From the NCBI RefSeq assembly GCF_024494645.1, contig NZ_JANHDJ010000014.1, positions 1 through 34,264 of the forward strand: a DNA stretch of 34,264 bases, written 5' to 3'. Each line of letters starts with the position of its first letter. The stretch's first letter is position 1. The translations under genes were made by a program, and so were the position numbers. Source of the DNA: Halohasta litorea (GTDB taxonomy: Archaea > Halobacteriota > Halobacteria > Halobacteriales > Haloferacaceae). The notes beneath the pieces were generated by a model. That model ran no database searches, was not told the DNA's origin, and worked only from the letters and a program-made list of their open reading frames with translations. This document shows, piece after piece, positions 15,183-31,409 of this stretch.

Positions 15183-15935
15183 CTATTGTTTTGCGAGCAA
15201 CTGCTCTTCGCGTATATTTTCAAACCCGAGGATAACGATTATCGCGCTCATCACTAGCGTTCCTCCTAGAAGAAGCATCAAACTGAGATTATGTAGCAGT
15301 TCAATGCCATACGTGTGACTCACAGTTTTACTTGCCACCGAAACACTCCCAATGAGTAACATGACGCCGAAGGCTGTTTTGAGTTCAGCGTCGTCGAGAT
15401 AATCTGTGAGTCCAGCACCGATGCGGGTTCCGACCGTGCTACCGACGAGCAAGGGAAGTAACATCGCGAAGTGAATCGCTCCCCGTTGTCCGTATACGAA
15501 TGACCCATACGCACTGGAAATTGTGATCTGAAAAATATCTGTTCCGACAGCGACAGCTCCCGGCATCGTAAGGCCATACATGAGTGCGGGCACCATCAAG
15601 AACCCGCCACCGACACCAAGGAATCCCGAGAGGCTTCCAACTACCACTGCGATCAAGAGTATGATCCATACAGAGATTTCAACACCAGTATCGAACGACA
15701 GCATCGGCGGGATGGATACTTGTTCGAGATAGGATGTGACCGTTGACTGGTTCACAATTGTGCTCTCATTCTCGATCGCGGGATGTCGACCATCTTGGAT
15801 GACGAACACACCAACGGCCGCGAGAAGGACAATATACAACACACTCACTACGATATCTGCAAGTCCAATATCTACCAGTACAAGGAGCACTCGTCTTCCA
15901 ATTTCGATACCAGTTGTCATTCCTGCAATCAACAC
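15183..15935 (-). pseudogene. TauE/SafE-family anion exporter, N-terminus missing
   Basis: The sequence reads GIEIGRRVLLVLVDIGLADI, then GSLSGFLGVGGGFLMVPALM at the second repeat, and GTDIFQITISSAYGSFVYGQ, all typical of TauE/SafE (DUF81) permeases that export sulfite or related organosulfur anions. Haloarchaeal members have roughly 330-350 residues with two repeats. Here only 250 remain, and the first repeat with its own GFLG(V/I)GGG motif is absent. The frame starts at a TTG right at the junction with the transposase fragment at 15943, with no start signal. I infer that transposon insertion removed about 90 N-terminal residues, so the protein is probably non-functional. The C-terminal part is intact. 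Confidence 0.75.
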
Positions 15936-15942
15936 TCGGTGA

Positions 15943-16730
15943 TCAAATCTGAAGCTTCGTTCCGTCGACCAGTCACAGCTGCAATCGACATCACGACCGT
16001 GCCATACTACGGCGATGTCGACGGGATGCCGATGGTTAGTGGGCTTGATCAGGAGAACCGAGCGTTCAAATTCGCCACCCTGTCGATTGTCGGGCTGAAT
16101 ATTCCACTCGTACTGGCTGTCGAACCAGTTCAGGAAAGTTCAGCTTGGGACGATAACGCACCTAATCAAGTCTATCGTGTTGTTCGTCGGTTGGTACGAC
16201 GTGCTAAGAAGCACGTCTCCATCGAGACTGTCCTGTGCGACCGGGAGTTCGATTCTATGCGAGTGTTCCAGACGTTGTCAAATCCCGGTGTGAACTACCT
16301 CATCCCGAAACGGATTACCAATTCTGAACAGAACGTTCTCGATCATCTGGAGGAGGACGATCAAGAGGTCGCGGTTGAGTCGGCCTCCGTCCACGTCGAG
16401 ACGGGATCGAATCCGATGCGGTTCCTATACGTGCCGTCGACGAAAGGCGAAGGAATGGCGGTATTTGCGACAAATATGCAAGTAGGACCAGATGAGGCCG
16501 AAGCATTCTGCCACCGGTATAGTCGCCGATGGCAGATCGAAAACGAGTACAAATCAATCAAAGGTGATTTCTTAGTGAAGACCTCCTCGAAAGACTACCG
16601 TATACGGCTGTTCTATTTCGTGTTTGCCGTGCTATTGTACAATATCTGGCGGCTCACCGACTTTTTGCTGAAAGCCGGTATTGACGGTGAGATGGACTAC
16701 GCGCCGGTTCTGACGGCTGCCTCGTTATCC
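15943..16730 (+). pseudogene. C-terminal (catalytic) half of a DDE transposase, inverted
   Basis: From 15943 the plus strand reads KSEASFRRPVTAAIDITTVP, VETVLCDREFDSMRVFQTL-like sequence (here IETVLCDREFDSMRVF), then YSRRWQIENEYKSIKGDFLV and LFYFVFAVLLYNIWRLTDF. This is the catalytic core of the same family as 9631-11304 (DIT, DREFD and E-YKSIK acidic residues all present) but a divergent member. It has no N-terminal region of its own, and family similarity ends near 16720-16730 (DYAPVLTAAS). The frame is open further to 16826, but that part is antisense to the N-terminal half on the minus strand. The first codons abut the truncated TauE gene. Confidence 0.8.
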
Positions 16731-17160
16731 TCGATAGAATGGTTCTCTTCGTCGACAACCTCTGATTTCGGTCGAACACCAGGAGTCGAGAAATCACGGT
16801 CGTGGGCCTCTTTGACGACGAAGTGAGCAGCGGTCTGAACGAACTCGCGGACGCCGTCGTCGAAGCGTTTGCGCCACGTCCGAGACAGCACGGATTCATC
16901 TGGAATGTGATCTAAACCCAGTGGCTCAGCGAGTTCCTGCTATCGGGCCAACTGTCGCCCGTTATCTCCCGGTAGATGAGGGGTCGGACTATTCCGAGAA
17001 ACGAATATGGAGCAGGGTGCCACTTGGGATACCCGTCATGGAGTAGTTCAGTCCGAATCGAACTCTTGGTGATACTTGATACGAGCAGGTTTCCGGTCCG
17101 CAGTTGTGCTGTAATTTCGATACCAGTACTGTAGGCATCGGTCATTCGGCGGGTACGATC
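16725..17160 (-). pseudogene. N-terminal half of the same DDE transposase, opposite strand
   Basis: The minus strand reads TGIEITAQLRTGNLLVSSIT, then LLHDGYPKWHPAPYSFLGIV with RPLIYREITGDS, a frameshift near 16945, then ELAEPLGLDHIPDESVLSRT, WRKRFDDGVREFVQTAAHFV and DFSTPGVRPKSEVVDEEN. This aligns with the N-terminal third of the transposase at 9631 (LGLGTVPDQSTLWRSWHHRF). It stops where the inverted C-terminal half begins, so together the two fragments account for one complete transposase in two orientations. Confidence 0.7.
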
Positions 17161-17510: not shown

Positions 17511-18290
17511 TTAAACGCTTAGATTGACACCTTCAACACACCGCACAACATCGTCGACTGATAACATCTCGAAGACAAAGTAGTCAGCCGGGACAGTCTC
17601 GACAACTTCTTTGTAGGCTTCGAGTGGCTCGTGCTGATCGCCGGTACCATCATTGGTGTGGAGGTGGCAGACACCGATACGGTCGCCGAAGGCCGAAACG
17701 AAGTCTTCCCATTCATGGCCACTAACCTTCGCATGGCCCACGTCTAGGGTCACTTTGAGGAACTCCTTGTCGACCGGAACATCAGCGAGGAAGTCAGCGA
17801 GGTCTGTTGGTGTAGTGGTATGCCGGCGCTTCGACTCGCTTGTCGGCTGGTTTTCGACACAGATCGGAACCTCGACTGCTTCGGCGTAGGTGGCACACTC
17901 GATGAGCGACTGGCGCGCGTTTGCGGCAGCCTTTGTTTGGACCCAATCGGGATACCGATATGGAACTGAACCACCGTGAAGGACGACTGCTCCGGCCCCG
18001 GCGTTCGAAGCATCGTCGAGCGTCCGTTTGACTAGGTCGACGCTCGCCTCTCGCACGTCGTCGTTGAAACTCCCCATGTTCCAGTCACGGAACGGGGCAT
18101 GGTAGGTCAGCGAGACGTTATACTGGTCGGTCAGCTCTCCGAGTTCGCTGGGCGTGGGTGTCTCCGGATACCCCTCCAAATACTCCTGTTTGAGTTCGAG
18201 GTGGTTTAGTCCGAGATCGGTCAGCGTCTCTAGGAACGTCTCGACGGGCGTGTTGAACCGGACATCCATCGCCGCCCCGAGCCGACTCAT
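17511..18290 (-). CDS. AP-endonuclease-2/epimerase-like TIM barrel in the C-P lyase operon
   Basis: A 259-residue protein of the xylose-isomerase-like TIM-barrel superfamily (sugar-phosphate isomerase/epimerase; AP endonuclease family 2). Likely metal ligands and active-site residues lie on successive strand ends: H64 (YHAPF), H105 (LHGGS), E146 (CVENQP), D183 and H186 (LDVGHAKVSG), H209/H211/D214 (HLHTND), and E241 (FVFEML). Its ATG overlaps the phnM stop by four bases (ATGA), so it is the last gene of the phn operon and is co-translated. Related enzymes isomerise sugars or hydrolyse phosphodiester bonds using divalent metals. No phnN or phnP is present here, so I infer that it may act on the phosphoribosyl product of the C-P lyase path. 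The exact reaction is unknown. Confidence 0.82.
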   Translation of the reverse strand: MSRLGAAMDVRFNTPVETFLETLTDLGLNHLELKQEYLEGYPETPTPSELGELTDQYNVSLTYHAPFRDWNMGSFNDDVREASVDLVKRTLDDASNAGAGAVVLHGGSVPYRYPDWVQTKAAANARQSLIECATYAEAVEVPICVENQPTSESKRRHTTTPTDLADFLADVPVDKEFLKVTLDVGHAKVSGHEWEDFVSAFGDRIGVCHLHTNDGTGDQHEPLEAYKEVVETVPADYFVFEMLSVDDVVRCVEGVNLSV

Positions 18291-19480
18291 GGCGTTCCCT
18301 CCGCGCGGTAGACCGGCTTCCCTGCGACGAACGCCCGTGTCACTGTCGGTGTCGGCTCTTCGTCGACGATCACGAGATCGGCCCGCGCACCCTCAGCGAT
18401 GCGCCCTCGGTCGGAGAGGCCGACAGCGTCGGCCGGGTCCTTCGTCACGCGAGCCACACGCTCGGGAAGCGAGTCGCCAGTCTCGACGAACGGTGTGGCC
18501 AAAAGCGAGATCGGGTGATAGTCGGCCACCAGCGCGTCGACGACACCCGCGTCGATGGCGTCTGCCGTCCGGAGGTTCCCCCACTGGCTCTCGCCGCGGA
18601 CGAGATTGGGTGCGCCCATCGTGACGGTCATCCCCAACTCGTTGGCTCGCTCGGCGGTGTCCAGAGTTATTGGATACTCGCTGATGTCGACGCCCACGTC
18701 CGCAAGCCGTTCGACCTCTTCGACTTCCTCGTCGTCGTGAGAGGCAGTCGGAATCCCGTGGTCGTGGGCAGTCTCGACGACGCGATCGATGCGCTCGCGG
18801 ATCGTGTCGAGTTCGAGGCTTCCTCGCTCTTTGATGATCTGTTCTGCCTCTGCGACCGAGTGGTTCTGTGAATCCCGGTAGTATTCGAGGAACGCCTCCC
18901 GGTCGCGGAACTGACCCTTGCCAGGGATATGGCTCATCACCGAGACGAGATCGGCGTTGCCTGCCGCGACGATTTCGGTAACGGCGTCGACACACCGCTG
19001 TTGGGTCACCTCACACCGGGCGTGAATCCGGTGATCGGCCATCAGGTCGTCGGCACGATCAACTGCCTCGGTGATCTCCGCACCCAATTCGGGTGAGCGA
19101 TTCTCGTCGGGGTCGACCTCAAAAGAGATGGCGTGAAACTTGGTAGTGATCCCGGCAGCGAGGTTCTCGCGGTCAGACGACGCCAGTGCCATGTGGGTAT
19201 CCATCTGTGCACCCGACCGTGGGTGAAGGTGTGATTCGATATCGTCGCCGTGGAGGTCGACGAGTCCGGGAAGCACGAGCCGACCCTTTGCGTCGAGGGT
19301 CTCGGCCCGCTGTCCCTCGACTCCATTGGTGGCAGGGAGGTCTTCAGGGTCACCGATACCGACGATACGGTTACCCTCGATCCGGATCGCACCCTCGATG
19401 ACGGCCTCGGGGGTGACGATCCGAGCGTTCTCGATAAGCCACGTCGACTCCTGGATCTGTTCCCCGCGCTGACTACTCAT
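18287..19480 (-). CDS. phnM: PhnM, ribophosphonate triphosphate hydrolase
   Basis: A 397-residue amidohydrolase-fold protein, slightly longer than the roughly 380-residue bacterial PhnM. PhnM removes pyrophosphate from ribose-1-phosphonate 5-triphosphate. The N-terminal beta domain starts STWLIENARIVTPEAVIEGA. The metal site begins with LVLPGLVDLHGDDIESHLHP near residue 69-88, and a second His/Asp cluster is at GIPTASHDDEEVEE. The C-terminal amidohydrolase signature is DRGRIAEGARADLVIVDEEP. The start overlaps the phnL stop (ATGA) and the end overlaps the TIM-barrel gene. Confidence 0.93.
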   Translation of the reverse strand: MSSQRGEQIQESTWLIENARIVTPEAVIEGAIRIEGNRIVGIGDPEDLPATNGVEGQRAETLDAKGRLVLPGLVDLHGDDIESHLHPRSGAQMDTHMALASSDRENLAAGITTKFHAISFEVDPDENRSPELGAEITEAVDRADDLMADHRIHARCEVTQQRCVDAVTEIVAAGNADLVSVMSHIPGKGQFRDREAFLEYYRDSQNHSVAEAEQIIKERGSLELDTIRERIDRVVETAHDHGIPTASHDDEEVEEVERLADVGVDISEYPITLDTAERANELGMTVTMGAPNLVRGESQWGNLRTADAIDAGVVDALVADYHPISLLATPFVETGDSLPERVARVTKDPADAVGLSDRGRIAEGARADLVIVDEEPTPTVTRAFVAGKPVYRAEGTP

Positions 19481-20211
19481 GCGACGACCACCCCTTCGTA
19501 CTCCTCGACTGGAACGATCCGCTGGAGCCGTGCCTCATCCAGAACAGCCACGCGGTCGGCGATGACTTCAACGACATCGGTGTTGTGGAAGACGCCGACG
19601 ACGGTTGTTCCATCGCCGAGATACTCCCGTAGGAGGTCGATAGCTGCCTGTCGCGTTTCGGGGTCGAGAGCACTCGTCGGCTCGTCGAGAAGAAGCAGAT
19701 CGGGCTGTGGAGCGATGGCCTGGGCGAGGTTGACCCGCTGTCGCTCGCCGCCGCTGAACGTCGCCGGATACGCCTCCCATAGCTCCTCGGGAAGTTTGAG
19801 TCGGGAGAGTAGCTCTTGGCTTCGCTCGCGGGCATCGGCGGTCGAGAGCCCGCCCTCGCGGAGCGGCCGTGCAACCACGTCGACCGCGGGCACACGCGGG
19901 ATCTCGTCGAGGAACTGTGAGGTATAGCCGATGGCGCTCTCCCGTAGCTGAATCATCTCGCGGTCGTCACACGATACGAGATCGACATCTCCCTCCGCAC
20001 CGTGGTAGACCACACGGCCAGCGCTAGGCTCGTAGGCCCGGTAGATACATTTCAGCAGTGAGGATTTGCCGCTGCCAGACTCACCGACGATGGCCAGAAA
20101 CTCGCCGTCGTCGACGGTGAACGAGACATCATCCAACCCGACGACCTGCGTATCGCCGAGGATGTGCATATCGAACGTCTTCCGTAGGTTTTCGATTGTA
20201 AGAACGGTCAT
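19477..20211 (-). CDS. phnL: PhnL, C-P lyase ABC-type ATPase
   Basis: A 244-residue ABC-type nucleotide-binding protein. Walker A is GESGSGKSS (43-51), the signature motif is FSGGERQRVNLAQAI, Walker B is LLLLDEPTSALD, and an H-loop motif reads VVGVFHNTD. PhnL lacks a membrane partner; in bacteria it supports the PhnI-catalysed transfer of phosphonate onto ATP ribose together with PhnG and PhnH. The ATG follows the phnK stop directly (TAAATG), and the gene runs into phnM by four bases. Confidence 0.93.
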   Translation of the reverse strand: MTVLTIENLRKTFDMHILGDTQVVGLDDVSFTVDDGEFLAIVGESGSGKSSLLKCIYRAYEPSAGRVVYHGAEGDVDLVSCDDREMIQLRESAIGYTSQFLDEIPRVPAVDVVARPLREGGLSTADARERSQELLSRLKLPEELWEAYPATFSGGERQRVNLAQAIAPQPDLLLLDEPTSALDPETRQAAIDLLREYLGDGTTVVGVFHNTDVVEVIADRVAVLDEARLQRIVPVEEYEGVVVA

Positions 20212-21039
20212 TTAAATCACCGAATTGATGAGTGTTTGTGTGTAGGCGTGGTGGGGATCCTCCATCACGCGGTCAGTGAGCCCCGACTCGATAACCCGTC
20301 CGTGGCGCATCACGAGCGTACGGTCGGCCAGCAGTCGAATCACCCCGAGGTCGTGGGAGACGACGACTGCGGCGACGTCTTCCTCGCGCTGGACGCGGCG
20401 GAACATATCCAGGACTCGCGCTTGGACGCTCACGTCGAGGCCAGTCGTCGGCTCGTCGAGGATGATCACGTTTGGGTCGTTTGCCAGCGCACGGGCGATC
20501 TGGACACGCCGCTGCATCCCACCGGAGTAGGTGTCGGTGGCGTCGTCCATCCGGTCAACCGGAATCTCGGTCGCCTCGAACAGCGAACCGACACGCTCGC
20601 GGATCTCCTCGTAGTTGCGCCAGCCCGCCGACAGCAGTTTCTCTGCGACGTTGCCGCCGCCGGAAAAGTCGAGTTCGAGCCCATCCCGGATGTGCTGGTG
20701 GACGAGGCTGATCTCGCCGTTCTGCAGCTCGTGGCGCGTCTGATAGTCGACATCCAGGAGGTTCCCCTCGTGATTCGCATAGCGAACCGCGCCGTCGGCG
20801 TGGCCCTCGTCATCGTCGAGCGCAAGCAGTTCGGCGACGCTCGACTTGCCGGAGCCGGATTCACCGACGATGCCGAGGACTTCCCCGGCTTCCACCGAAA
20901 GGTCGACATCCGCACAGGCAACGACGCTCCCGCAGATCGGACACTGGTTGGTTCCGGCACGGTCGCCTGTACGGTCCAGACAGACCGCACAGCCCTCGCC
21001 GTAGACCTTCGTCAGTCCCTCGGCCTCCAAGAGGCTCAT
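20212..21039 (-). CDS. phnK: PhnK, C-P lyase ABC-type ATPase with zinc-ribbon-like insert
   Basis: A 275-residue ABC ATPase that docks on the PhnGHIJ core in bacteria. After MSLLEAEGLTKVYGEG an insert carries four cysteines, C17-x2-C20-x12-C33-x2-C36 (CAVC and CPIC), which could bind zinc, before the strand entering Walker A GESGSGKSS (59-67). Further motifs are SLVHQHIRDGLELDFSGGG, signature YSGGMQRRVQIARAL, Walker B VIILDEPTTGLDVS and H-loop VVVSHDLGVIRLLADRTLVM, all characteristic of PhnK. Escherichia coli PhnK, from memory, is about 252 residues and lacks the four-Cys insert. The start overlaps the phnJ stop by four bases. Confidence 0.93.
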   Translation of the reverse strand: MSLLEAEGLTKVYGEGCAVCLDRTGDRAGTNQCPICGSVVACADVDLSVEAGEVLGIVGESGSGKSSVAELLALDDDEGHADGAVRYANHEGNLLDVDYQTRHELQNGEISLVHQHIRDGLELDFSGGGNVAEKLLSAGWRNYEEIRERVGSLFEATEIPVDRMDDATDTYSGGMQRRVQIARALANDPNVIILDEPTTGLDVSVQARVLDMFRRVQREEDVAAVVVSHDLGVIRLLADRTLVMRHGRVIESGLTDRVMEDPHHAYTQTLINSVI

Positions 21040-22076
21040 TCAGCATCACCGCCATGGCTGTCGACTGTCGCCTCAGGCGTGGCCGACTTCTCGTCATCCG
21101 GCGTCCCCGGCCCCCAGTCGACTCCCTCACGATCGAGGTGATAATCCTTCGGTAGTTCCTCGCTGTCCTGTCGTTTGAGACAAAACGAGGTATCGTTGCA
21201 GACGTACTGTCGGTCCCGATCGTCGGTTTCGATTTCAGTGAGATAGGTATCGGTCGACCCGCAGGCCTGACAGGACTGGTCGGGGAAGCGTTCGACCTGG
21301 AATGTCCGATCCTCGAAGGCCAACGGCTCGACGCTCGTATGGGGTGGAACGGCGTAGATTCGGGCCTCGCGTCCGGCGGCGAAGACGAACAGGTTGTCGG
21401 CGTCATCGAGTTTGGGGACGTCCCACCGGGGGATCGGCGAGGGGTCCATGAGATAGCGGCCACCGACCATCGTCGGGTAGCGTGCGGCAATATTGATCTC
21501 GCCGAACTCGACGACATTCTCGTAGAGATGAACCCACATCTTGCCGTAGTTTTTGTGGGCGTGTCGACGCCGGTTGGCTGCATCCGAGGAGTCGACCTTT
21601 CGGAGTGCATCTGTGATCGGCACCTGCAACACGAGGATCTGGTCGTCGGTCAGCACCTCCTCGGGAATCCGGTGGCGTGTCTGGATCACGTCGGCGTCAG
21701 TCGTATCGGTCGTCGTCTCGACATCGGCGGTGTCGCTGGCCAGTCGACGGATGTTGGCCGCGTTGACTGATTCGTCTGACCCCTGGTCGATGACTTTGAA
21801 CGTGTCGTCGGGACCGAGAATCGACAGCGAGGCCTGAATGCCGCCGGTCCCCCAGCCGCGGGCCAGCGGCATCGGTCGGGAAGCATACGGCACCTGATGG
21901 CCGGGGATGGCGATGGCCTTCAATATTGAGCGCCGGACCTCGCGTTTGGTGTGTTCGTCGAGATAGGCGTAGTTGTAGCCGTCGAGCCCGTCGTCTCCGT
22001 CGAGGCTGTCGAGGACAGCGTCGACGGAGTCGGTCGATACAGTTTGGCCTGTGGTTGGTGGCTCTGTTTCAGTCAT
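21036..22076 (-). CDS. phnJ: PhnJ, radical-SAM carbon-phosphorus lyase
   Basis: The catalytic subunit, which cleaves the C-P bond of 5-phosphoribosyl-1-phosphonate using a 4Fe-4S cluster and SAM. I take ATG 22076 (346 residues), which overlaps the phnI stop by eight bases; the frame is open to 22295 but that stretch is antisense-like. Conserved features: YAYLDEHTKREVRRSILKAI, IPGHQVPYASRPMPLARGWG followed by TGGIQ, and HAHKNYGKMWVHLYENVVEF. The cysteine motif is C269-x2-C272-x20-C293-x5-C299, matching the bacterial C-x2-C-x21-C-x5-C cluster and radical site with one residue fewer. A roughly 30-residue acidic N-terminal extension and an acidic tail are haloarchaeal additions. Confidence 0.96.
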   Translation of the reverse strand: MTETEPPTTGQTVSTDSVDAVLDSLDGDDGLDGYNYAYLDEHTKREVRRSILKAIAIPGHQVPYASRPMPLARGWGTGGIQASLSILGPDDTFKVIDQGSDESVNAANIRRLASDTADVETTTDTTDADVIQTRHRIPEEVLTDDQILVLQVPITDALRKVDSSDAANRRRHAHKNYGKMWVHLYENVVEFGEINIAARYPTMVGGRYLMDPSPIPRWDVPKLDDADNLFVFAAGREARIYAVPPHTSVEPLAFEDRTFQVERFPDQSCQACGSTDTYLTEIETDDRDRQYVCNDTSFCLKRQDSEELPKDYHLDREGVDWGPGTPDDEKSATPEATVDSHGGDAE

Positions 22077-23244
22077 CGTTGTTGATTTCCATCGGGGTCT
22101 GCTCGCTGTCGTCACGCTCGGTGTTCTCGGCTTCATCTCCGTTCTTGGCCTCGTCGTCGACGCCCGCTGCGGACCCCACGCCTGCCCGGTGTCGAATTCC
22201 ACGAATTCGGTCGAGAATCGACTGAAACGTGACGTAGTGGGGCAGTTTGAGGTGTTCAATGAAGCCGAACGAATCCATCCCGTCGACCACATCAAGGACG
22301 AACTCGGGGTTCTCGGCGGGCTCGGACTCGCTGTCGAGTTGGATCGAAGCGTCGAGAATCGTCATAGCGATGGCCTTGCGTTCGTTGCGACCGAAGGTCA
22401 GTCCGTAGCCGAAGGCGAACTGTGGATCCTCGCGCTTGGCGTACACCGGCACCACCGCCTCGCTCTCGCTGAGTTCGATATCGGTCACTCGAACCTCTTC
22501 GTCCGTGTATGGGTGTTCGATCTTCACGGGGAGCTTGCCGACCCGAACCTCGGCGAGCGTCGGGTGTACTTGGCCATAGCCCCGGAGCGCGGAGTAACCC
22601 AGCGCGGTCACTGCCCCCGTCTCGCCGCGGGCAAGCTCTTGAAGAACTTCGTCGCGGTCGACCGGATGGGTCACCGACTCGCGGGTGGTGTCGGCTGGCT
22701 CGCCGTCGAATTCGTGTTCGGGTTCGTGAACGAGGCCCTCCTCGCGGAGTACCTCCATCACGTTTGTGAGCTGTTCTGGCTCTGTCTCGTCGACCTCCCA
22801 GTCGGCGGTCGGATCGTCCGGCTCGTCGTCTTCGTGGTCGGTTTCGAGGTTGAAATCCAGGAGTCGCTGGGTGTAGTCCTTGGTTGGGCCGAGGATCTGG
22901 CCGCCCGGCACGTCTTTATACGCGGGTGAGACGCGTCGTGTAGCGAACATCTCAGAAGGATCGGCGGTAACCGTTTCGTCCCAGCGTTCTAGCGTCGACC
23001 GGTAGGCCCGCAGCAGAAACGCAGCTTCGACTGTATCGCCTTGTGCCTGTTTCACCGCAAGCGCGGCGAGTCGCGGGGCGTACAGCCCGGCCTCGCTCAT
23101 CGCTTGGGCGGTCAGGCGGTCGAGCTGGCCCTCGATCTGGTCGACCGATAGCGTCTCGTCCTCGCCGTCGAGTCGCTGTTTTTCGAACAGGTCCGCAGCA
23201 CGTTCGATAATCTCCTCGCCAGCTTTGACCGCAACGTACCCCAT
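22069..23244 (-). CDS. phnI: PhnI, C-P lyase nucleosidase/transferase subunit
   Basis: A 391-residue PhnI, starting MGYVAVKAGEEIIERAADLF, the canonical beginning. It holds the C-P lyase core and, with PhnG, PhnH and PhnL, swaps adenine of ATP for phosphonate. Recognisable segments are MSEAGLYAPRLAALAVKQAQ, LLRAYRSTLERW, RVSPAYKDVPGGQILGPTKD followed by YTQRLLDF, and FAFGYGLTFGRNERKAIAMT. Near the C-terminus are DSFGFIEHLKLPHYVTFQSI and an acidic tail. The ATG overlaps the phnH stop (TGATG); the end overlaps phnJ. Confidence 0.95.
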   Translation of the reverse strand: MGYVAVKAGEEIIERAADLFEKQRLDGEDETLSVDQIEGQLDRLTAQAMSEAGLYAPRLAALAVKQAQGDTVEAAFLLRAYRSTLERWDETVTADPSEMFATRRVSPAYKDVPGGQILGPTKDYTQRLLDFNLETDHEDDEPDDPTADWEVDETEPEQLTNVMEVLREEGLVHEPEHEFDGEPADTTRESVTHPVDRDEVLQELARGETGAVTALGYSALRGYGQVHPTLAEVRVGKLPVKIEHPYTDEEVRVTDIELSESEAVVPVYAKREDPQFAFGYGLTFGRNERKAIAMTILDASIQLDSESEPAENPEFVLDVVDGMDSFGFIEHLKLPHYVTFQSILDRIRGIRHRAGVGSAAGVDDEAKNGDEAENTERDDSEQTPMEINNDD

Positions 23245-23801
23245 CAGGCCACCTCCATCGACACTGAGCGGGGCACTGCGAGGAGCCGATCACCGGCCGT
23301 GAAGATCGCCTCGACGCCGCGAGGATACGTCGACTGGGTCGCGGTGATCGCATCGAGTTCCTCGGTCGGGAGTCCAACAGCCACCGATCGGGTGTCGGGG
23401 ATCCCCGGTCCCGAGAGGGTGATCGTCGTCAAATCGAGGTCAGCATCAGCGTCCGCAGACAGGCCGTCGACCCGGTAGATTACCGTCGCGCCCTCGCTGG
23501 GTTCGACGAGTGTCCCACGAGTGAGGTCGGCGACGTTCCATGTAGGCACGCCGTGGGTGTGGACGATATCGGCCGTCTCCGGCTCGGCGTCGTCGAGCCG
23601 ACCGTGACTCGCCAGTTTTTCCCGAAGCTCGGTGTCGGCTGTGGACAGCGACACCTCATGGTCGACCAGCGTGGCGACGACGGCGTGATCGGCCGGGTCC
23701 GTTGGAACCGCTTGAATCGTGCCGGGCCGACTCATCGCGTCACAGAGCGCCCGGAAAGTAGCCCGTGTGTCGGCGACGGGATCGAGTCCGAGGGATCTCA
23801 C
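23244..23801 (-). CDS. phnH: PhnH, C-P lyase core subunit
   Basis: A 185-residue PhnH, starting from a GTG at 23801 that overlaps the phnG stop (GTGA). The upstream-open frame to 23855 is antisense-like and is excluded. Conserved features are DTRATFRALCDAMSRPGTIQ near the start, VATLVDHEVSLSTAD, and the glycine-rich GPGIPDTRSVAVGLPTEELD, followed by YPRGVEAIFTAGDRLLAVPR, the usual PhnH ending. PhnH belongs to the PLP-transferase fold but lacks the cofactor lysine site in known structures; it dimerises in the PhnGHIJ complex. Confidence 0.94.
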   Translation of the reverse strand: MRSLGLDPVADTRATFRALCDAMSRPGTIQAVPTDPADHAVVATLVDHEVSLSTADTELREKLASHGRLDDAEPETADIVHTHGVPTWNVADLTRGTLVEPSEGATVIYRVDGLSADADADLDLTTITLSGPGIPDTRSVAVGLPTEELDAITATQSTYPRGVEAIFTAGDRLLAVPRSVSMEVA

Positions 23802-24241
23802 AGCTCGTCCTCCATCGTTTCGAACTCGACGGCGGTGTGGCGGCTCTCGGCCCACTCGCGGTCCCGGCTGGCGGCTCGTTGTTCACCGGCGGCTTCGAGT
23901 TCGTCGACCATCGCGGCCGTGCGATTGTGACCGCCAGCGACCGCCGCGTCGACGATGGCTCCCGACAGCGCTTCTCGTTCGGCCTTGCCGGGGCGCATGG
24001 CGAACCCGCGTTCGCCGTCGAGACTGACCTCGGCGGGTGTGACAACGACCTCACCGAGATTGAACGGTCGACGCTCGACCGGTTCGCGGACCTGCTGCAT
24101 GAGAAGCGTCGGTTTGGGCTCCTGTCGGATCGTCAGTGGTGGGTCGGATTCGAGAATTTCGTTGGCGAACCGGGCGAGTACGGACTCATCACAGGCCGCG
24201 ATGAGCTCGAACCGGTCCGAGCGGTTATGGGCATCCGTCAT
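23798..24241 (-). CDS. phnG: PhnG, C-P lyase core subunit and first gene of the operon
   Basis: A 147-residue PhnG, close to the bacterial length of about 150. ATG 24241 (MTDAHNRSDRFELIAACDES) is preferred to the longer start at 24268 because a TATA-like element lies at 24258-24265, close upstream, which implies a leaderless message. Family features are PPLTIRQEPKPTLLMQQVRE, then FNLGEVVVTPAEVSL and the helix EREALSGAIVDAAVA. It partners PhnI in the core complex. Its stop overlaps the GTG start of phnH. Confidence 0.93.
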   Translation of the reverse strand: MTDAHNRSDRFELIAACDESVLARFANEILESDPPLTIRQEPKPTLLMQQVREPVERRPFNLGEVVVTPAEVSLDGERGFAMRPGKAEREALSGAIVDAAVAGGHNRTAAMVDELEAAGEQRAASRDREWAESRHTAVEFETMEDEL

Positions 24242-24257
24242 ACAATCAAGTAGGGAA

Positions 24258-24265
24258 TCTCTAAA
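24258..24265 (-). promoter_or_regulatory. TATA-like box for the phnG operon
   Basis: TTTAGAGA on the minus strand, about 20-25 bases before ATG 24241. This is the usual position for leaderless haloarchaeal promoters. Confidence 0.45.
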
Positions 24266-24343
24266 CACCCGAATAAGGGTTCGCTGGGTACTCTCTATTC
24301 CTCCCTGTGAGGACCTGATCGAACACCCACCGAGATACGAGCG

Positions 24344-24446: not shown

Positions 24447-24467
24447 CCCGTTAGTTCGACTCAGGTG

Positions 24468-25490
24468 ATGGCACCTACCAGTGAGGTCGACGCCTCTGAC
24501 GTACCGACGACGACCACGAGTACCGAGAAGCGAGCTCTGAGTCGCCGCCGGTTCGCCGCCGGCGCGCTCGGCGCAGCCGGACTTACCGGGATGGCTGGCT
24601 GTAGCAGCGTCTTGGGCAACGCAGATAGTAGTGAAACGATCACGATGCTACTGACGCCCGACACACCGTCGGACGTTCGGCCGCAGTATCAGCCGGTCCA
24701 CGATCTGCTCGAAGGCGAGATCGACGGCCTCGATCTCGAAATGAAGGTCCCACAGGACTACTCGGCTGTCAGACCGGCCCTGCGGAGCGAACAGGCCGAG
24801 ATCGGGATGGACGACGTGACGCTCATTTCGGACCCCGACATGATGGATCTGTTTGGAACGGCTGTCACTGGCGGGACGGCCTTCTACTTCTCGATGATGC
24901 TGACGAAACCCGAGTCAGATATCGACGAACGGACCGATCTCGAAGGCCGATCGGTCGCCTTCGCCGACCGCCTCTCAACGAGTGGTTCGATCTTCGCCGT
25001 CTATGCACTCAAGGAGGCTGGTCTTGACGTGGGCGACGCACCTGACGGCCCACCAGTCGACTTCGACGGGACGTGGTCGAACCACGAGGACGCCGTCCAG
25101 AAGGTGATCAACGACGACGCCGACGCCTGCTGTACGTGGACTGGCAACGGGATGGCCTACCTCGCTCAAGACCAGGAACTACCAGAAGAGGTAGCAAACC
25201 AAGATTCGTTCGTTGGCAACCGTGGCAGCGAATCCGAGACGCTTCGACCGTTCTGGTGGTCGTTCCCGATTCCGAAACAGCCGATCTACGCCCGCCAGTC
25301 GTGGGACTCGCCGATGAAAGAGGAGATCCGCCAAACCCTGATCGACTCCGACAGAGAGCTCATCGAAGAGTACCTTCCCGAGGATTACAACGAGGACGAT
25401 CTGCCGTTTAGCACGCTCCGAGAGACGACAATGGACAACTACGAACCCGTGATCACGCGGCTCAACGATCTCGGTATCGAACTCGGATAA
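24468..25490 (+). CDS. phnD: PhnD, phosphonate-binding lipoprotein
   Basis: A 340-residue periplasm-type binding protein of the phosphonate ABC importer. The N-terminus has a twin-arginine motif, LSRRRFAAGALGAAGLTGMA, ending in a lipobox with lipidated C45 (MAGC), so it is exported folded and anchored to the membrane. The mature part follows the PhnD pattern: ITMLLTPDTPSDVRPQYQPV (substrate-loop strand), FYFSMMLTKPESDIDERTDL, and EGRSVAFADRLSTSGSIFAV. A GTG lies one codon earlier (24465); ATG is chosen. It heads an operon running phnD-phnC-phnE-acyltransferase-MFS, with a 28-base gap to phnC. Confidence 0.93.
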   Translation: MAPTSEVDASDVPTTTTSTEKRALSRRRFAAGALGAAGLTGMAGCSSVLGNADSSETITMLLTPDTPSDVRPQYQPVHDLLEGEIDGLDLEMKVPQDYSAVRPALRSEQAEIGMDDVTLISDPDMMDLFGTAVTGGTAFYFSMMLTKPESDIDERTDLEGRSVAFADRLSTSGSIFAVYALKEAGLDVGDAPDGPPVDFDGTWSNHEDAVQKVINDDADACCTWTGNGMAYLAQDQELPEEVANQDSFVGNRGSESETLRPFWWSFPIPKQPIYARQSWDSPMKEEIRQTLIDSDRELIEEYLPEDYNEDDLPFSTLRETTMDNYEPVITRLNDLGIELG

Positions 25491-25518
25491 CCAGCTCACC
25501 ACGAAATTTTCAGTTATC

Positions 25519-26310
25519 ATGAGCACGCTTACAATCGAGAATCTGACAAAGGAGTACGGCGACGTGACTGCACTCGAAGACGTCTCCTTCGAGATCGATG
25601 ACGAGTTCGTCGTGCTGCTCGGCGAATCAGGGGCCGGAAAGTCGACGCTACTCCGGTGTATCAACGGCCTCACCGAGCCGACGAGCGGCGAGATACGGCT
25701 CGACGGCGAGCCGATCGTTGGCTCCCAGCCGGACGTGGGGATGATCTTCCAACAGCACAACCTCGTTGAGGGACTCTCAGCGTATGTAAACGCGCTGACC
25801 GGGTCTTTGAATAGCTCCTCGACGTTCGAGAGCCTCCTCCAACAGCAGGATCGGTCGACAAAAAAAGACGCGCTTGAAGCCCTCGAAACCGTCGGGCTTC
25901 TCGACGAAGCCCACCAGCACGTCTCCCAGATGAGCGGTGGCCAACAACAGCGGGTCGGCATCGCCCGCGCACTGGTCCAAGATCCACGGTTGGTGTTGGC
26001 CGACGAACCGGTCGCCAGTCTAGATCCCTCGAGTGCTGAGACCGTGATGGGTTATTTAAAAAAGGCTGCAGGGCTTCACGAGGTGACCGCACTGGTGAGC
26101 CTCCATCAGGTCAATATCGCCGCCCACTTCGGCGAGCGATTCATCGGGCTTCGAGACGGCCAACTGCTGTTCGATGTCGACCAGGATGGACTCACACCCG
26201 AACTCGTCGACGAACTCTACGGGAGTGTCGAGACGGTCGGACTTGCCCAGCAGACCGACCCGCCGGAGATTCCGTCGACCGACCAGCCCACACTGGGGGC
26301 CGAAACGTGA
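25519..26310 (+). CDS. phnC: PhnC, phosphonate ABC transporter ATPase
   Basis: A 263-residue ABC ATPase. Motifs are Walker A GESGAGKST (35-43), Q-loop MIFQQHNLVEGLSAYVNALT (the NAL-G pattern is typical of PhnC), signature MSGGQQQRVGIARAL (138-152), Walker B LVLADEPVASLDP, and H-loop VSLHQVNIAAHF. It powers uptake of phosphonate delivered by PhnD through PhnE. The GTG start of phnE overlaps its stop. Confidence 0.94.
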   Translation: MSTLTIENLTKEYGDVTALEDVSFEIDDEFVVLLGESGAGKSTLLRCINGLTEPTSGEIRLDGEPIVGSQPDVGMIFQQHNLVEGLSAYVNALTGSLNSSSTFESLLQQQDRSTKKDALEALETVGLLDEAHQHVSQMSGGQQQRVGIARALVQDPRLVLADEPVASLDPSSAETVMGYLKKAAGLHEVTALVSLHQVNIAAHFGERFIGLRDGQLLFDVDQDGLTPELVDELYGSVETVGLAQQTDPPEIPSTDQPTLGAET

Positions 26311-27305
26311 GTTCCAAACCTTCACGCATCGACGAACTCCGAACATATCTGGGGTTCGGTGAGGGAGGCTCGTCAGCAGTCGACAAAAAGCTCCAAGATA
26401 TCAAACGACGGAAGACGATCCGCCGGCTCTGGGGTCTCGTTGGCTTACTCGCGTTTGCCGCTGTCTTTAATTGGAGTCTCTCGACTGTCGGGTTTTCGCT
26501 GGCCGAGCTGTACCGTCAGCTGCCGGAGTTTGGCGAGGCGCTAACTGGGTACTTCCCGCCGACGCTCTACTTCGATCTCATTCCGTTCGTCGACGTGATG
26601 CAGTACTGGGAGTTCATGGTCGAAGCCGAACTGTTTGCAGCCTCGCAGGTGACAGTCGCTATTGCCATCGCGGGGACAGCGCTTGGTCTGCCGCTCGCGC
26701 TGTTTTTCGGTGTGATGGCCAGCGAGCGCGTCGTTCCCTACCCATTCAACTTCGCCTTCCGACTGACTATGAGTGTCATTCGGGCGATTCCGGCGTTGGT
26801 CTGGGTGCTCATCCTCATCCCGCTTGGGGGTGTCGGGCCGTTTACTGCGACGCTAGCAGTGATGATCGACACCGGTGGCTACCTCGGTCGACTGTTCACC
26901 GACGAACTCGAAGAAATAGCCGATGGGCCCATCGAAGGGATTCGCAGTACGGGAGCAAACAAGCCACAGATCATCTCCTTCGGGATGTTGAGCCAAGTGT
27001 TCCGGCAGTTTATCGCGTGGCTCGCCTTTGACCTCGAACACAACGTTCGGGTAGCCATTAGCCTCGGGCTCATCGGGGCTGGGGGGCTGGGACTCGAACT
27101 CAACGTCCAGCGGCGGACGTTCAACTACACCGAGATGATGGCCTGTATCATCCTCGTGATTCTGCTTGCCGGAACAGTCGAACTACTGAGCCAGCGGCTC
27201 CGCTCGTACCTCCGTGACGACGAGGAGGTAGAGCGAACCGGCATCCTCGAAGCGTTCGTCACCGCTCCGGCCAAGATCGCACGGTCGGCCATGGGGCGCC
27301 GGTAG
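26307..27305 (+). CDS. phnE: PhnE, phosphonate ABC transporter permease
   Basis: A 332-residue permease with about six membrane segments, starting from GTG 26307, four bases inside phnC (GTGA). It has a long cytoplasmic N-terminus (about 45 residues), a first helix LWGLVGLLAFAAVFNWSLST, and the BPD-transport domain with VTVAIAIAGTALGLPLALFF, LTMSVIRAIPALVWVLILIP, and the EAA-like coupling loop EGIRSTGANKPQIISFGMLS. IGAGGLGLELNVQRRTFNYT is the typical PhnE end. Only one permease gene is present, so it probably forms a homodimer. Confidence 0.94.
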   Translation: MSSKPSRIDELRTYLGFGEGGSSAVDKKLQDIKRRKTIRRLWGLVGLLAFAAVFNWSLSTVGFSLAELYRQLPEFGEALTGYFPPTLYFDLIPFVDVMQYWEFMVEAELFAASQVTVAIAIAGTALGLPLALFFGVMASERVVPYPFNFAFRLTMSVIRAIPALVWVLILIPLGGVGPFTATLAVMIDTGGYLGRLFTDELEEIADGPIEGIRSTGANKPQIISFGMLSQVFRQFIAWLAFDLEHNVRVAISLGLIGAGGLGLELNVQRRTFNYTEMMACIILVILLAGTVELLSQRLRSYLRDDEEVERTGILEAFVTAPAKIARSAMGRR

Positions 27306-27311
27306 CGACCA

Positions 27312-27995
27312 ATGACGACCTATATCGAGTCTTACGGACCGGACCGAACTCGGAAACTGGGTCCCGAGCCGACGATCCACGATCCAGTCGCGATCTCCGA
27401 GAGCGAACTCGGCGCGTGGACCGAACTCCGTCAGGGCTGTCGACTCAACGAATCGAAAATCGGAGATTACACATATCTGATGGAGCGCGTCCAGTTGGAC
27501 CACACGACCATTGGAAAGTTCGGTAACGTCGCCTCCGATGCCCGACTGGGACCGACTAACCACCCGATTGAGCGACCGACTGCCCACCATTTCACCTACC
27601 GAGCCGAGATGTACGACCTCGGAGAGGACGACGAGTCGGTTTTCGAGTGGCGGGCCGACCAGCCAGTTACAGTCGGCCACGACGTCTGGATCGGTCACGG
27701 TGCAACTGTGCTCCCCAGCGTCGAGATCGGAAACGGCGCAGTCGTTGCTGCTGGTTCGGTCGTAACGAAAGACGTCGACCCCTACACAATCGTGGCTGGG
27801 GTGCCCGCAGAGCCGATCAAAAGACGGTTTTCCGAGGAGATCGCCGCACGCCTCGATGCGACCGAATGGTGGCACTGGGACCACGACGTGCTGGCCGAGC
27901 GACTTGCGGCCTTCCGTGATCTCGACTCGTTCCTCTCGCGGTACGCGCCCGAAGTCCCTGTTAAACCCGTCGACGGCCACGCCGATCACGCGTGA
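27312..27995 (+). CDS. Phosphonate-locus hexapeptide acyltransferase
   Basis: A 227-residue left-handed beta-helix transferase of the family often found in phosphonate operons (phn_thr type). Hexapeptide-like turns appear at VAISESELGAWTELRQGCRL and SKIGDYTYLMERVQLDHTTI, and the acyl-acceptor region reads ARLGPTNHPIERPTAHHFTY. It ends with DVWIGHGATVLPSVEIGNGA and GSVVTKDVDPYTIVAGVPAE, the usual CoA-binding coils. It probably N- or O-acylates an aminoalkylphosphonate or related compound, as PhnO does with a different fold; this is inference. It starts six bases after phnE and overlaps the MFS gene by four bases (GTGA). Confidence 0.9.
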   Translation: MTTYIESYGPDRTRKLGPEPTIHDPVAISESELGAWTELRQGCRLNESKIGDYTYLMERVQLDHTTIGKFGNVASDARLGPTNHPIERPTAHHFTYRAEMYDLGEDDESVFEWRADQPVTVGHDVWIGHGATVLPSVEIGNGAVVAAGSVVTKDVDPYTIVAGVPAEPIKRRFSEEIAARLDATEWWHWDHDVLAERLAAFRDLDSFLSRYAPEVPVKPVDGHADHA

Positions 27996-29266
27996 GTCCC
28001 TCGTCGTCAGTCGACGGCCCGTCAGATGCTAGCAGCGCGTCGAATGCTGATGGCGTGGTAGATGTCGACGGCGTCACTGAGGTAGCCCACGTCCGTGACC
28101 GTCGACGCGTTCTGGCGGTGACTGCGACCACACTGTTTTGCTCGGCATTGATATGGTTCAATTACGCCGCCGTCCTACCGCAGGTGACCGAGGAGTGGGG
28201 GCTCACTGGAATCGAGGCAGGGGCTGTCTTCGGTGCGTTCCAAGCTGGCTATCTGCTCTCGATTCTCCCCGCTGGCTGGCTCGCTGACCGCTACTCGCCG
28301 CGGTGGGTGATCGCCGTTGGGGCAGCCGGGACCGCGCTCCCGAGCCTCGCGTTCGCCGCCCTCGCCGACGGGATCATCCTCGGAGTTGCCCTCCGATTTC
28401 TCTCGGGGCTCTTTGTGGCTGGCGTCTACGTTCCGGGAATGCGGTTTCTCAGCGATTGGTTCCCCAAGACTGTCCGGGGGCAGGCTCTCGGAGCTTACAT
28501 CGGGACGTTCGAACTCGGTAGCGGCCTCTCGTTCGTGTTCGCCACTGCAGTCGCCGAAGCAGTTGATTGGCGGGTCGCCATCGCCGCAACAAGTGTTGGT
28601 GGGTTGGTAATTTCGCCACTTATCGTGGTCGCAACGCGGGACGCCCCGAATCGTGTCGAACCCACAGCATCAGGGATCGGCTGGTCACTGTTCCGAAACC
28701 GACCGTATCTGCTGGCGGTCGGCATCTACGCGTGGCACAACTGGGAACTGTTCGGTGTCAGAGGCTGGCTATTAGCGTTTCTGGTCGCTACACCAGCCTT
28801 TGCGGCCACCGGGTCGACAGTTATCCCTGGCCTCGTCGTCGGGGCGATGATCGTCGCCAGCGGTGTGGGGAACCTCGCCGGGGGCTGGCTGAGTGATCGT
28901 ATTGACCGGCAAGCTGTACTCGCAATCGGTCTCGGGGCGAGCGCGTTTGTGAGTGCTGTCTTCGGCTTCATCGGAGGACTGACGACGCCACTGTTGGTTG
29001 GTGTAGTCCTCGTCTACGGGGTTGTCCTCGCACTCGACAGCGCGCCAACGTCGACGCTCGTGACCGAGGTCGTCTCCGACGAACACGTCGGGACAGCGCT
29101 CTCAGTGCAGTCGCTGGTCGGCTTTTCGACGACGATCATCTCACCTGTCGTCTTCGGGATTGCCCTCGACTGGGGCGGCTACACGGCTGCGTTCCCGATG
29201 CTTGCAGCCGGAGCCCTCGTCGGACTAGGGTTCGTCGGGCTATTGGGACGAACAGTCAGATCATGA
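27992..29266 (+). CDS. MFS transporter in the phosphonate operon
   Basis: A 424-residue major-facilitator protein with about twelve membrane segments. The start is GTG 27992, overlapping the acyltransferase stop. A 45-residue Ser/Asp-rich cytoplasmic N-terminus precedes helix 1 (VLAVTATTLFCSALIWFNYA). The A-motif loop between helices 2 and 3 is GWLADRYSPRWVIAVG, and a related loop between helices 8 and 9 is GWLSDRIDRQAVLAIG. Its substrate cannot be read from the sequence. Position suggests a phosphonate, its acylated form or the organic residue left after C-P cleavage. Its 3' end overlaps that of the regulator gene on the other strand by 11 bases. Confidence 0.88.
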   Translation: MSPSSSVDGPSDASSASNADGVVDVDGVTEVAHVRDRRRVLAVTATTLFCSALIWFNYAAVLPQVTEEWGLTGIEAGAVFGAFQAGYLLSILPAGWLADRYSPRWVIAVGAAGTALPSLAFAALADGIILGVALRFLSGLFVAGVYVPGMRFLSDWFPKTVRGQALGAYIGTFELGSGLSFVFATAVAEAVDWRVAIAATSVGGLVISPLIVVATRDAPNRVEPTASGIGWSLFRNRPYLLAVGIYAWHNWELFGVRGWLLAFLVATPAFAATGSTVIPGLVVGAMIVASGVGNLAGGWLSDRIDRQAVLAIGLGASAFVSAVFGFIGGLTTPLLVGVVLVYGVVLALDSAPTSTLVTEVVSDEHVGTALSVQSLVGFSTTIISPVVFGIALDWGGYTAAFPMLAAGALVGLGFVGLLGRTVRS

Positions 29267-30182
29267 CGTGATCCGGTTGGAGGCCCGAGTGGAGTCGGAC
29301 GGCGATCTCGGCAGCGTCGACCCAGTAGTAGATTGCCCGTTCGAGGGCACGAGTGATCGAAACGAGATAGCCGTACAGCTCCGGATCGTAGGCGGTCACC
29401 AGTTCGAACAGTTCGTCGAGATCCCGGTGGACCGTCTCTTCGAGCGTAATGAGCCTGTCGTGGGCGTCGAGATCGCATTCAAAGAGGATGGCTCCGAGTG
29501 CATCGTTGATCGATGCTCCCGCTTCGAAGATGTCGACGACGCGCTCCTCGATGACGCCCGTGGCTGGTCGGTGTTCGCGGTCGACCATATCGGCGATGAA
29601 ACAAGCACGGTCGCCAACGATTTCGAGGTTGGTGGCGATCGTCGAAAGATCGGCGGCGACGCGGTTACCGGGCCAGTCGGTCGTTAGCGTGTAGTTTTTG
29701 AGTTCACTCAAGACCGCCGAGTACCGCTCGTTGGCCAGTGATTCGAGCGTATCTGCCGACTGTTCGGGGTCCTCACCGACAAACGCCTCGTGGGCGGCGG
29801 CGTACTGCGCCGACGTAACGTCGTTGAGTCGTTCAAGAAGTTCCACGACGGTACGCCCGCGGTCGGCTGCCTCGGTCGACTGATCGATTTCGGGGACTGA
29901 CTCGTCCGTTGAGAGAGGATTCGATGTAGAGAGGTTCGAAATCCCTCGCGCCGATCTGTACAGTTGATCGTTGTCGACGACGTAGGCCTTCCGAACGATG
30001 TCTTCTCCTTTGAGTTCGCCGAGGAGTTCTGAGAGATACTGTTCGGAGATGCCGACCGTCTCGGCGAGCCGTGTTTTCGTGCCCGGTGCCGTGCGGTCGA
30101 TGGCTTCGATTACTTGGGTGAGTGTTGCATCACGGCCCTGATAGCCAGCGTTTCCCCGAGGGTGCCACATACGACGGGACAT
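29256..30182 (-). CDS. Winged-helix PhoU-domain regulator
   Basis: A 308-residue protein. Residues 18-75 form a winged helix (ATLTQVIEAIDRTAPGTKTR, LAETVGISEQYLSELLGELK, GEDIVRKAYVV), and a roughly 190-residue PhoU-like helical domain follows a Ser/Thr-rich linker. PhoU features are VVELLERLNDVTSAQYAAAH, NYTLTTDWPGNRVAADLSTI, ATNLEIVGDRACFIADMV and TLEETVHRDLDELFELV. It is likely a DNA-binding regulator of phosphate or phosphonate genes. A TATA box at 30205-30211 and the candidate operator at 30228-30255 sit right upstream, which suggests auto- or cross-regulation. Confidence 0.87.
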   Translation of the reverse strand: MSRRMWHPRGNAGYQGRDATLTQVIEAIDRTAPGTKTRLAETVGISEQYLSELLGELKGEDIVRKAYVVDNDQLYRSARGISNLSTSNPLSTDESVPEIDQSTEAADRGRTVVELLERLNDVTSAQYAAAHEAFVGEDPEQSADTLESLANERYSAVLSELKNYTLTTDWPGNRVAADLSTIATNLEIVGDRACFIADMVDREHRPATGVIEERVVDIFEAGASINDALGAILFECDLDAHDRLITLEETVHRDLDELFELVTAYDPELYGYLVSITRALERAIYYWVDAAEIAVRLHSGLQPDHVMI

Positions 30183-30204
30183 ACTCCCAACAATCCGATG
30201 CCCG

Positions 30205-30211
30205 AATATAG
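30205..30211 (-). promoter_or_regulatory. TATA box for the winged-helix PhoU regulator
   Basis: CTATATTC-like sequence on the minus strand, centred about 26 bases before ATG 30182, so the message is probably leaderless. The operator repeats begin about 17 bases further upstream. Confidence 0.5.
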
Positions 30212-30227
30212 CCGTGACCCACAGACT

Positions 30228-30255
30228 GTCTGTACCAGTCTGTACTGGTCCGGAC
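30228..30255. promoter_or_regulatory. Candidate phosphate/phosphonate operator, copy 2, three phased repeats
   Basis: GTCTGTAC (30228), GTCTGTAC (30238) and GTCCGGAC (30248) are spaced exactly ten bases apart. The last two form GTCTGTACTGGTCCGGAC, 17 of 18 bases identical to the phnG-phnD element. They lie between two divergent PhoU-domain genes, just upstream of the TATA box of the winged-helix one. Confidence 0.62.
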
Positions 30256-30353
30256 TACCGCGATCTAACCGTGGCCCTGTACACTCTAGAGACAGCAAGT
30301 AGATCCACCGTACCCATATCGCTATATATTGCTTACCATGTGAGTTGTTATCT

Positions 30354-30362
30354 CATATAAAA
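30354..30362 (+). promoter_or_regulatory. TATA box for the AbrB-PhoU regulator
   Basis: CATATAAAA centred about 23 bases before ATG 30381. This supports that start with a leaderless message rather than ATG 30396 or the more distal open frame. Confidence 0.5.
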
Positions 30363-30380
30363 CATCAAACAGTCGAACCA

Positions 30381-31409
30381 ATGAGTATATTCCATATGGA
30401 AACACGCAAGGTACAGCTATCCGGTGGCACAACATATACTGTTTCGCTTCCGAAGAAGTGGGCTCAAGAACACGGCATCGACGCTGGGTCCGTACTCGCG
30501 TTACATCCGAATGGGGACAGTTCCTTACTCATCGAAGCGACGACCGACCGATCGACTGCCGACCGAACAGTGACTGTCGATGTGTCGACGGCAACCGACA
30601 AGGCACTCCGCCAGCGGATTCTCGCCCTCCACGCGGTTGGTTTCGACTCGGTAACACTAACTGACTCGTCGGGACACGATCCCGAGCGGCGGCACGTAAT
30701 CGAAGAAACCCTCCAGGAGCTTTCGGGATTCGAACTCATGGAGGCGACGGATCATCGAATCAAACTGACGAACCTCATCGCCGCCGAGAACGTCGATGTC
30801 CGCAAGAGCGTGCTTCGACTTCGGTTGGTAATGCTATCGATGCACCGGGATGGCCTCGATGCGGTTATCAACGGCGATACGGAACTGGCTCGACGCGTCG
30901 TTTCCCGCGACAGCGAAGCCGACAAATTGTTTGCGATGATCACCCGCCATTTCCGGCGGTCGCTATCGAATCTCTACGAGGTCAAAAAACTGGAGCATAG
31001 CCGTGACGAACTGTTCGAGTACTACTATGCCGCCCGACAGTTTGAACGGATAGCCGATCACGCCGAGAAGATGGCGGGGTTCACACTCAACTCGGAGGCG
31101 TCGATACCCAAACAGTATGCCGAGGAGTTCGCTTCATTGGGAAAGTCGACTCGTGGGATCATTGACGATGCAGCCGATGCGATCCTGACCGGGGGTGGTA
31201 TCGAAGCCGCTAACGGAGCCCTTGGTAAGTACGACCGCTTACAGGACCAACTCGACGACGTAGACCGAGAGCTCTACGACCATGACGTGCCGGGTGAGGC
31301 GTATGTTCTCGGTCTCGTCCTCGATAGTCTCCGTCGAACTGCCGAATACGGCGTCAACGTCGCCACCATTGCTATCCAACAGTCGACCAGGCAGAATGCC
31401 GATACCTAA
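30381..31409 (+). CDS. AbrB/SpoVT-PhoU phosphate uptake regulator
   Basis: A 342-residue protein with an N-terminal swapped-hairpin AbrB-like domain (METRKVQLSGGTTYTVSLPK, then KWAQEHGIDAGSVLALHPNG) and a PhoU-type helical C-terminal part (VDVRKSVLRLRLVMLSMHRD, SRDSEADKLFAMITRHFRRS, and YYAARQFERIADHAEKMAGF). This architecture is the usual haloarchaeal PhoU-like regulator of Pst phosphate transport. It is divergent from the winged-helix PhoU gene, with the candidate operator between them. The start at 30381 is supported by a TATA box; a second ATG at 30396 is in frame. Confidence 0.9.
   Translation: MSIFHMETRKVQLSGGTTYTVSLPKKWAQEHGIDAGSVLALHPNGDSSLLIEATTDRSTADRTVTVDVSTATDKALRQRILALHAVGFDSVTLTDSSGHDPERRHVIEETLQELSGFELMEATDHRIKLTNLIAAENVDVRKSVLRLRLVMLSMHRDGLDAVINGDTELARRVVSRDSEADKLFAMITRHFRRSLSNLYEVKKLEHSRDELFEYYYAARQFERIADHAEKMAGFTLNSEASIPKQYAEEFASLGKSTRGIIDDAADAILTGGGIEAANGALGKYDRLQDQLDDVDRELYDHDVPGEAYVLGLVLDSLRRTAEYGVNVATIAIQQSTRQNADT

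Follow-up and report, generated by a model that had tools for sequence, protein, structure and literature searches.

A TIM-barrel protein encoded beside phnM as a probable replacement for PhnP in haloarchaeal C-P lyase operons

The C-P lyase operon of the haloarchaeon Halohasta litorea ends in a gene for a TIM-barrel protein. Judged from sequence and gene context, this protein of predicted AP-endonuclease-2 fold is probably a phosphodiesterase that depends on metal ions and fills the role of PhnP in the C-P lyase operons of haloarchaea. It is the most likely filler of the empty diesterase step in the archaeal operons, and a non-homologous replacement within a known pathway is the best explanation for its presence there. 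C-P lyase is a main route by which microbes obtain phosphorus from phosphonates, and it is also a source of aerobic methane. In Escherichia coli, PhnJ leaves 5-phosphoribosyl 1,2-cyclic phosphate (PRcP), which PhnP converts to ribose 1,5-bisphosphate and PhnN further to PRPP (PMC10574752). The same review from 2023 states that haloarchaea lack phnNOP, lists archaeal operons with their core genes only, and notes no published archaeal phosphonate consumption.

The window analyzed here is the whole 34,264-nucleotide stretch of contig NZ_JANHDJ010000014.1. On its minus strand, a C-P lyase operon begins with phnG at 24268, continues with phnHIJKLM and ends in the barrel gene (Table 1). The initial annotation had described this gene as the last of a C-P lyase operon without phnN and phnP, overlapping phnM by four bases, and all of this holds. 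An open reading frame check returned the same coordinates and supplied the strand, which had not been given. The genes phnGHIJKLM precede it, neither phnN nor phnP is part of the operon, and the overlap with phnM is exactly 4 nt (ATGA; 18287–18290).

Table 1 Phosphonate-related genes of the window
Feature	Coordinates	Strand	Evidence and remarks
AP_endonuc_2-type TIM-barrel gene, candidate PRcP phosphodiesterase (PhnP analogue)	17511–18290	-	259 aa, ATG start
phnM (RPnTP diphosphatase)	18287–19480	-	NF011990, 471 bits (cut-off 233)
phnL (ATP-binding)	19477–20211	-	TIGR02324, 249.8 bits, best family, just under cut-off 256.3
phnK (ATP-binding)	20212–21039	-	TIGR02323, 210.1 bits, best family, under cut-off 302.85
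phnJ (C-P lyase radical SAM subunit)	21036–22076 (5' end approximate)	-	PF06007, 444.8 bits
phnI	22069–23244	-	PF05861, 462.4 bits
phnH	23244–23855 (start codon approximate)	-	TIGR03292, 153.4 bits, over cut-off
phnG	23798–24268 (start codon approximate)	-	TIGR03293, 100.1 bits, over cut-off
Divergent phosphonate ABC importer	24465–27305	+	phnD 24465–25490, phnC 25519–26310, phnE 26307–27305
Phosphonate-associated hexapeptide transferase (phn_thr-fam)	27312–27995	+	TIGR03308, 305.8 bits (cut-off 201.65)
MFS transporter gene		+	With the divergent importer group

Some further features of this region can be described. Past the Pfam domain, haloarchaeal PhnJ ends in an acidic extension of about 40 residues (21036–21980 in the window). 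A divergent gene pair weakly similar to PhoU (29256–31409) lies beside the phosphonate genes and probably encodes phosphate-starvation regulators; the phn operon of Haloferax is likewise flanked by a PhoU pair (L113). Downstream of the operon end a DDE transposase gene is found (15783–16826).

In a Pfam profile search the barrel protein matches PF01261 (AP_endonuc_2) with 96.6 bits against a cut-off of 31.1. This is its sole Pfam match, hence there is none to the metallo-beta-lactamase fold, and no kinase family was matched among the Pfam and NCBIfam profiles. The best NCBIfam match is the cobamide-remodelling phosphodiesterase CbiR (NF041277), at 63.6 bits below the cut-off of 105. AlphaFold predicts a (β/α)8 barrel (pLDDT 93.4). 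With this predicted model as query, the top solved structure in Foldseek is MJ1311 (PDB 3wqo; E 5e-17, 25% identity, TM 0.82), which is nearest by sequence as well as by fold, was deposited as D-tagatose 3-epimerase-like, and unlike the barrel gene has no phn operon context as far as examined. The matches also include E. coli endonuclease IV (15% identity), ranked below sugar epimerases, and a comparison with viral structures yields generic AP endonucleases and epimerases only. In RefSeq the operon-linked barrel proteins are labelled 'sugar phosphate isomerase/epimerase family protein', a public name that the phosphodiesterase reading, if true, would correct.

The metal-ligand residues provide a sharper picture. 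Across 29 aligned operon-linked proteins, among them a set of 28 sequences that are 54–70% identical to the window's protein, H64, H105, E146, D183, H186, H209, D218, H220 and E241 are invariant. All but D218 and H220, which had been overlooked, were already named in the initial annotation at their correct positions. Alignment with Nfo shows the nine to be the ligand types that make up the three-metal site in endonuclease IV. Eight of them fall in the same columns as E. coli Nfo H109, E145, D179, H182, H216, D229, H231 and E261, the equivalent of the ninth, Nfo H69, lies three columns off, and the first-ligand histidine aligns directly with the endonuclease IV of M. tuberculosis. Endonuclease IV has been cited as an example of three-zinc phosphodiester hydrolysis (PMC5301497), and CbiR, an enzyme of the same fold, uses metal to hydrolyse a phosphodiester other than DNA (PMC7733943). 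The E. coli isomerases/epimerases UlaE, FrlC and Hyi, again of this fold, each miss at least one of H64, H105, H186, D218 and H220; with all of these extra ligands in place, the barrel does not match a single-metal epimerase-type site. The invariance of the nine endonuclease IV ligands thus argues for a phosphodiesterase rather than an epimerase, and favours a putative site of the three-metal branch to which endonuclease IV and CbiR belong. The earlier description as 'epimerase-like' therefore understates the ligand set.

How tightly is the gene bound to phosphonate metabolism? A search with the window's PhnJ as query, one genome per species, gave 30 loci in haloarchaea and 50 in bacteria. Of the haloarchaeal phn loci that extend far enough, 29/29 have the barrel gene (52–71% identity) directly behind phnM, compared with 0/50 bacterial ones, so the arrangement is not a matter of chance, and the linkage proposed for checking in other haloarchaeal operons proves to be conserved. 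In 24 of the 29 the two genes share exactly 4 nt, and the other five have gaps of -1 to 49 nt. Public plasmids carry the same phnM-barrel arrangement, and a strain of Haloferax alexandrinus has a phn operon on plasmid NZ_CP106969. The gene phnJ is present in 30 of 322 Halobacteria genomes, and the barrel family occurs in 30/30 of these versus 16/292 phnJ-negative ones (Fisher p 6e-31), where its members score lower. The distance from phnJ to the barrel gene is 2.8–3.3 kb in 28 of the 30 phnJ-positive genomes. One genome is split over contigs and still has phnM and the barrel gene adjacent (L109), and another (G313, L108) has an operon in decay, with phnJ and the barrel gene both truncated and separated by 10 kb.

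The pairing extends to a non-haloarchaeal archaeon of the same phylum (G414, L119:3671-5857), in which a phnL fragment and a full phnM (426 bits) are followed by a barrel gene. Its product is 33% identical, keeps all nine ligands and is encoded with a 4-nt overlap with phnM. The 9.9-kb contig holds no phnGHIJ, and the locus may be a rearranged or fragmentary operon. A phnM-barrel pair outside haloarchaea indicates that this coupling is older or more widespread than haloarchaea. Genes for a metallophosphoesterase and a phosphate-binding-type protein precede the three genes.

The known enzymes for the steps after PhnJ were searched for in the same genomes. PhnN exceeds its cut-off in 0/30 phnJ-positive haloarchaea, which show only partial kinase matches of 20–28 bits; the window's genome gave one such match, of 25 bits, in the profile search. 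PhnP is likewise over the cut-off in 0/30, with remaining matches of 28–66 bits (65 bits versus a cut-off of 272 in the window's genome). Such sub-threshold matches are equally present in phnJ-negative haloarchaea and therefore look like housekeeping metallo-beta-lactamases. The PhnP profile is a weak discriminator that is not decisive alone, as housekeeping metallo-beta-lactamase matches of about 50–80 bits occur in haloarchaea with and without phnJ and in phnJ-positive bacteria alike, the highest bacterial score being 82 bits, and E. coli PhnP found no tblastn match in the 80 phn loci, bacterial ones included. Because the latter search is blank in bacteria too, it does not separate haloarchaea from bacteria, and the weight falls on PhnN, RcsF and linkage instead. 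RcsF, proposed from comparative genomics to replace PhnP in bacterial phn operons without phnP (PMC10574752), is represented by the 2H phosphodiesterase family TIGR03223, which occurs in 0/30 phnJ-positive haloarchaea versus 14/21 sampled phnJ-positive bacteria. The use of PhnP and PhnN, initially taken as the bacterial rule, is thus not universal, as many bacterial operons use RcsF.

Linkage to phnM, co-occurrence with phnJ and the absence of PhnN, RcsF and a recognizable PhnP all support, at the level of sequence, what had been suggested for this gene: a possible unrecognized archaeal step of phosphonate breakdown carried by a metal-dependent stand-in. PhnP and PhnN homologues elsewhere in the genome together with a loss of linkage to phnM would have spoken against it; what is found is the absence of PhnN and linkage in 29/29 loci. 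Where a stand-in for both PhnP and PhnN had been considered, the evidence points to the PhnP step only, since the fold gives no hint of a kinase reaction.

In the proposed mechanism, PhnGHI would load the phosphonate onto ribose, PhnM would remove pyrophosphate, and PhnJ would cleave the C-P bond and leave PRcP. This cyclic diester would then be opened in the putative three-metal site of the barrel to ribose 1,5-bisphosphate, and the barrel might in addition split off the 1-phosphate, yielding ribose 5-phosphate and Pi. We infer the metals, substrate, reaction and product of the protein; for PRcP hydrolysis the basis is the pathway position and the absence of alternatives. The archaeal pentose bisphosphate pathway is fed by R15P isomerase (PMC9700705), and where present this enzyme would drain ribose 1,5-bisphosphate into that pathway and make PhnN unnecessary. 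The window's genome has the isomerase (468 bits). Among phnJ-positive genomes, where a sink for this compound was expected to be enriched, it is over its cut-off in 15/30, no more often than in the others (196/292, p 0.07), so half of them have no known consumer of ribose 1,5-bisphosphate. The final product may be this compound or ribose 5-phosphate and Pi. Genomes without it would have either another consumer or a barrel that also removes the 1-phosphate. A tentative extension of the proposal is that the TIM barrel, with its putative three metals, acts as a dihydrolase and turns PRcP directly into ribose 5-phosphate and Pi, and this would explain the half of phnJ-positive haloarchaea in question. 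If true, it would be a new activity in an old fold, and the archaeal C-P lyase pathway would need neither PhnP nor PhnN. The archaeal endgame may therefore differ from the route to PRPP via PhnN, either by entry into the pentose bisphosphate pathway or by direct phosphate release.

Comparison with known systems puts this proposal into context. The barrel would share substrate and pathway place with E. coli PhnP, and both are encoded by the last gene of a phn operon; however, PhnP has a metallo-beta-lactamase fold without homology to the barrel, and in E. coli phnP lies several genes past phnM. The E. coli MG1655 record annotates phnE as a pseudogene. RcsF is a proposed operon-linked PhnP replacement as well, but of an unrelated family. 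A precedent for a two-step reaction is Elen0235 of Eggerthella lenta, a PHP-family three-metal dihydrolase that opens a cyclic phosphodiester and goes on to hydrolyse the monoester so formed (PMC11656708). It differs from the barrel in having a PHP rather than an AP_endonuc_2 fold, and a second step is only a possibility for the barrel. CbiR shares the fold, but the barrel gene is linked to phnM and not to cobamide genes. If the proposal is true, the barrel would add another unrelated solution to one chemical step beside PhnP, the proposed RcsF and the PHP-type Elen0235.

Could the barrel act after ring opening instead? It might isomerize or epimerize a sugar phosphate such as ribose 1,5-bisphosphate, with PRcP opened by an unlinked housekeeping phosphodiesterase, for which metallo-beta-lactamase or 2H (LigT-type) enzymes could serve. 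The shared fold family, MJ1311 and the tagatose/psicose 3-epimerases as nearest structures, the RefSeq name, and the half of phnJ-positive genomes without R15P isomerase would all fit such a role. We consider it unlikely, since UlaE, FrlC and Hyi miss extra ligands that are invariant in the barrel, the curated D-tagatose/psicose 3-epimerase family scores 36.8 bits, far under its cut-off of 300, and the barrel gene is there with or without R15P isomerase. An operon phosphodiesterase might also act on another diester, be it an ester-linked phosphonate that has to be trimmed ahead of C-P cleavage, or a cyclic phosphonate or cyclic nucleotide that PhnI/PhnM form as a dead end. The same ligand evidence would apply, and the phnM overlap together with the phnM-barrel pair on the contig without phnJ (L119) would suit it. 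This is quite improbable, as no enzyme would then remain for the PhnP step in any of the 30 genomes, which have no PhnN, RcsF or linked PhnP, and the operon in L119 may have been rearranged or be a fragment.

Much less credence can be given to two further ideas. A non-catalytic subunit or operon passenger is very improbable, given that the nine ligands are invariant among proteins that share only 54–70% identity with the window's and are kept even in the 33% identical copy. The ligand types, all nine of which match those of endonuclease IV, would allow an AP endonuclease or other DNA-repair enzyme hitchhiking with the operon. This appears hardly credible: similarity to Nfo is low, the endonuclease IV models are far under their cut-offs (NF002198, 40.9 bits versus 244; TIGR00587, 23.9 versus 129.65), and for a repair enzyme neither so close a translational overlap nor its unfailing co-occurrence with phnJ would make sense. 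The phosphodiesterase in PhnP's place thus stays the preferred reading.

The family is not confined to phosphonates, as close relatives stand beside ECF transporters in genomes without phnJ. An ECF transporter adjoins 14 of the 16 barrel copies of phnJ-negative haloarchaea, and 13 of these 14 also have a 2-phosphosulfolactate-phosphatase-like gene. These ECF-linked copies form a sister group of the operon-linked barrels, with the exact split moderately supported; a branch that sets off the operon-linked group appears in 74% of bootstraps. This ECF-linked sister group perhaps serves the salvage of a phosphodiester-containing vitamin. Its loci (L094–L107) encode an S component, fused ATPases and a CbiQ-like T component, and the S component of the one copy examined matches no Pfam or NCBIfam family. 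Among residues that might mark the linkage to phn genes, W70 is confined to the 29 phn-linked copies. R68 and N71 are found in all 29 linked copies and the L119 copy and are missing from the 14 ECF-linked ones, but were rejected as a marker because two non-phn copies (L092, L093) have both.

More distant paralogues occur in other contexts. One in the window's own genome (L003:1354-2154) is 33% identical, has all nine ligands and sits between apparent cell-envelope glycosyl- or glycerophosphotransferase genes. Another, on a megaplasmid of Halorubrum ezzemoulense (L114:1-6624), also has all nine ligands; the genes before it code for a glycerophosphodiester phosphodiesterase, a sugar ABC transporter and a HAD hydrolase, which places this fold in a second phosphodiester setting.
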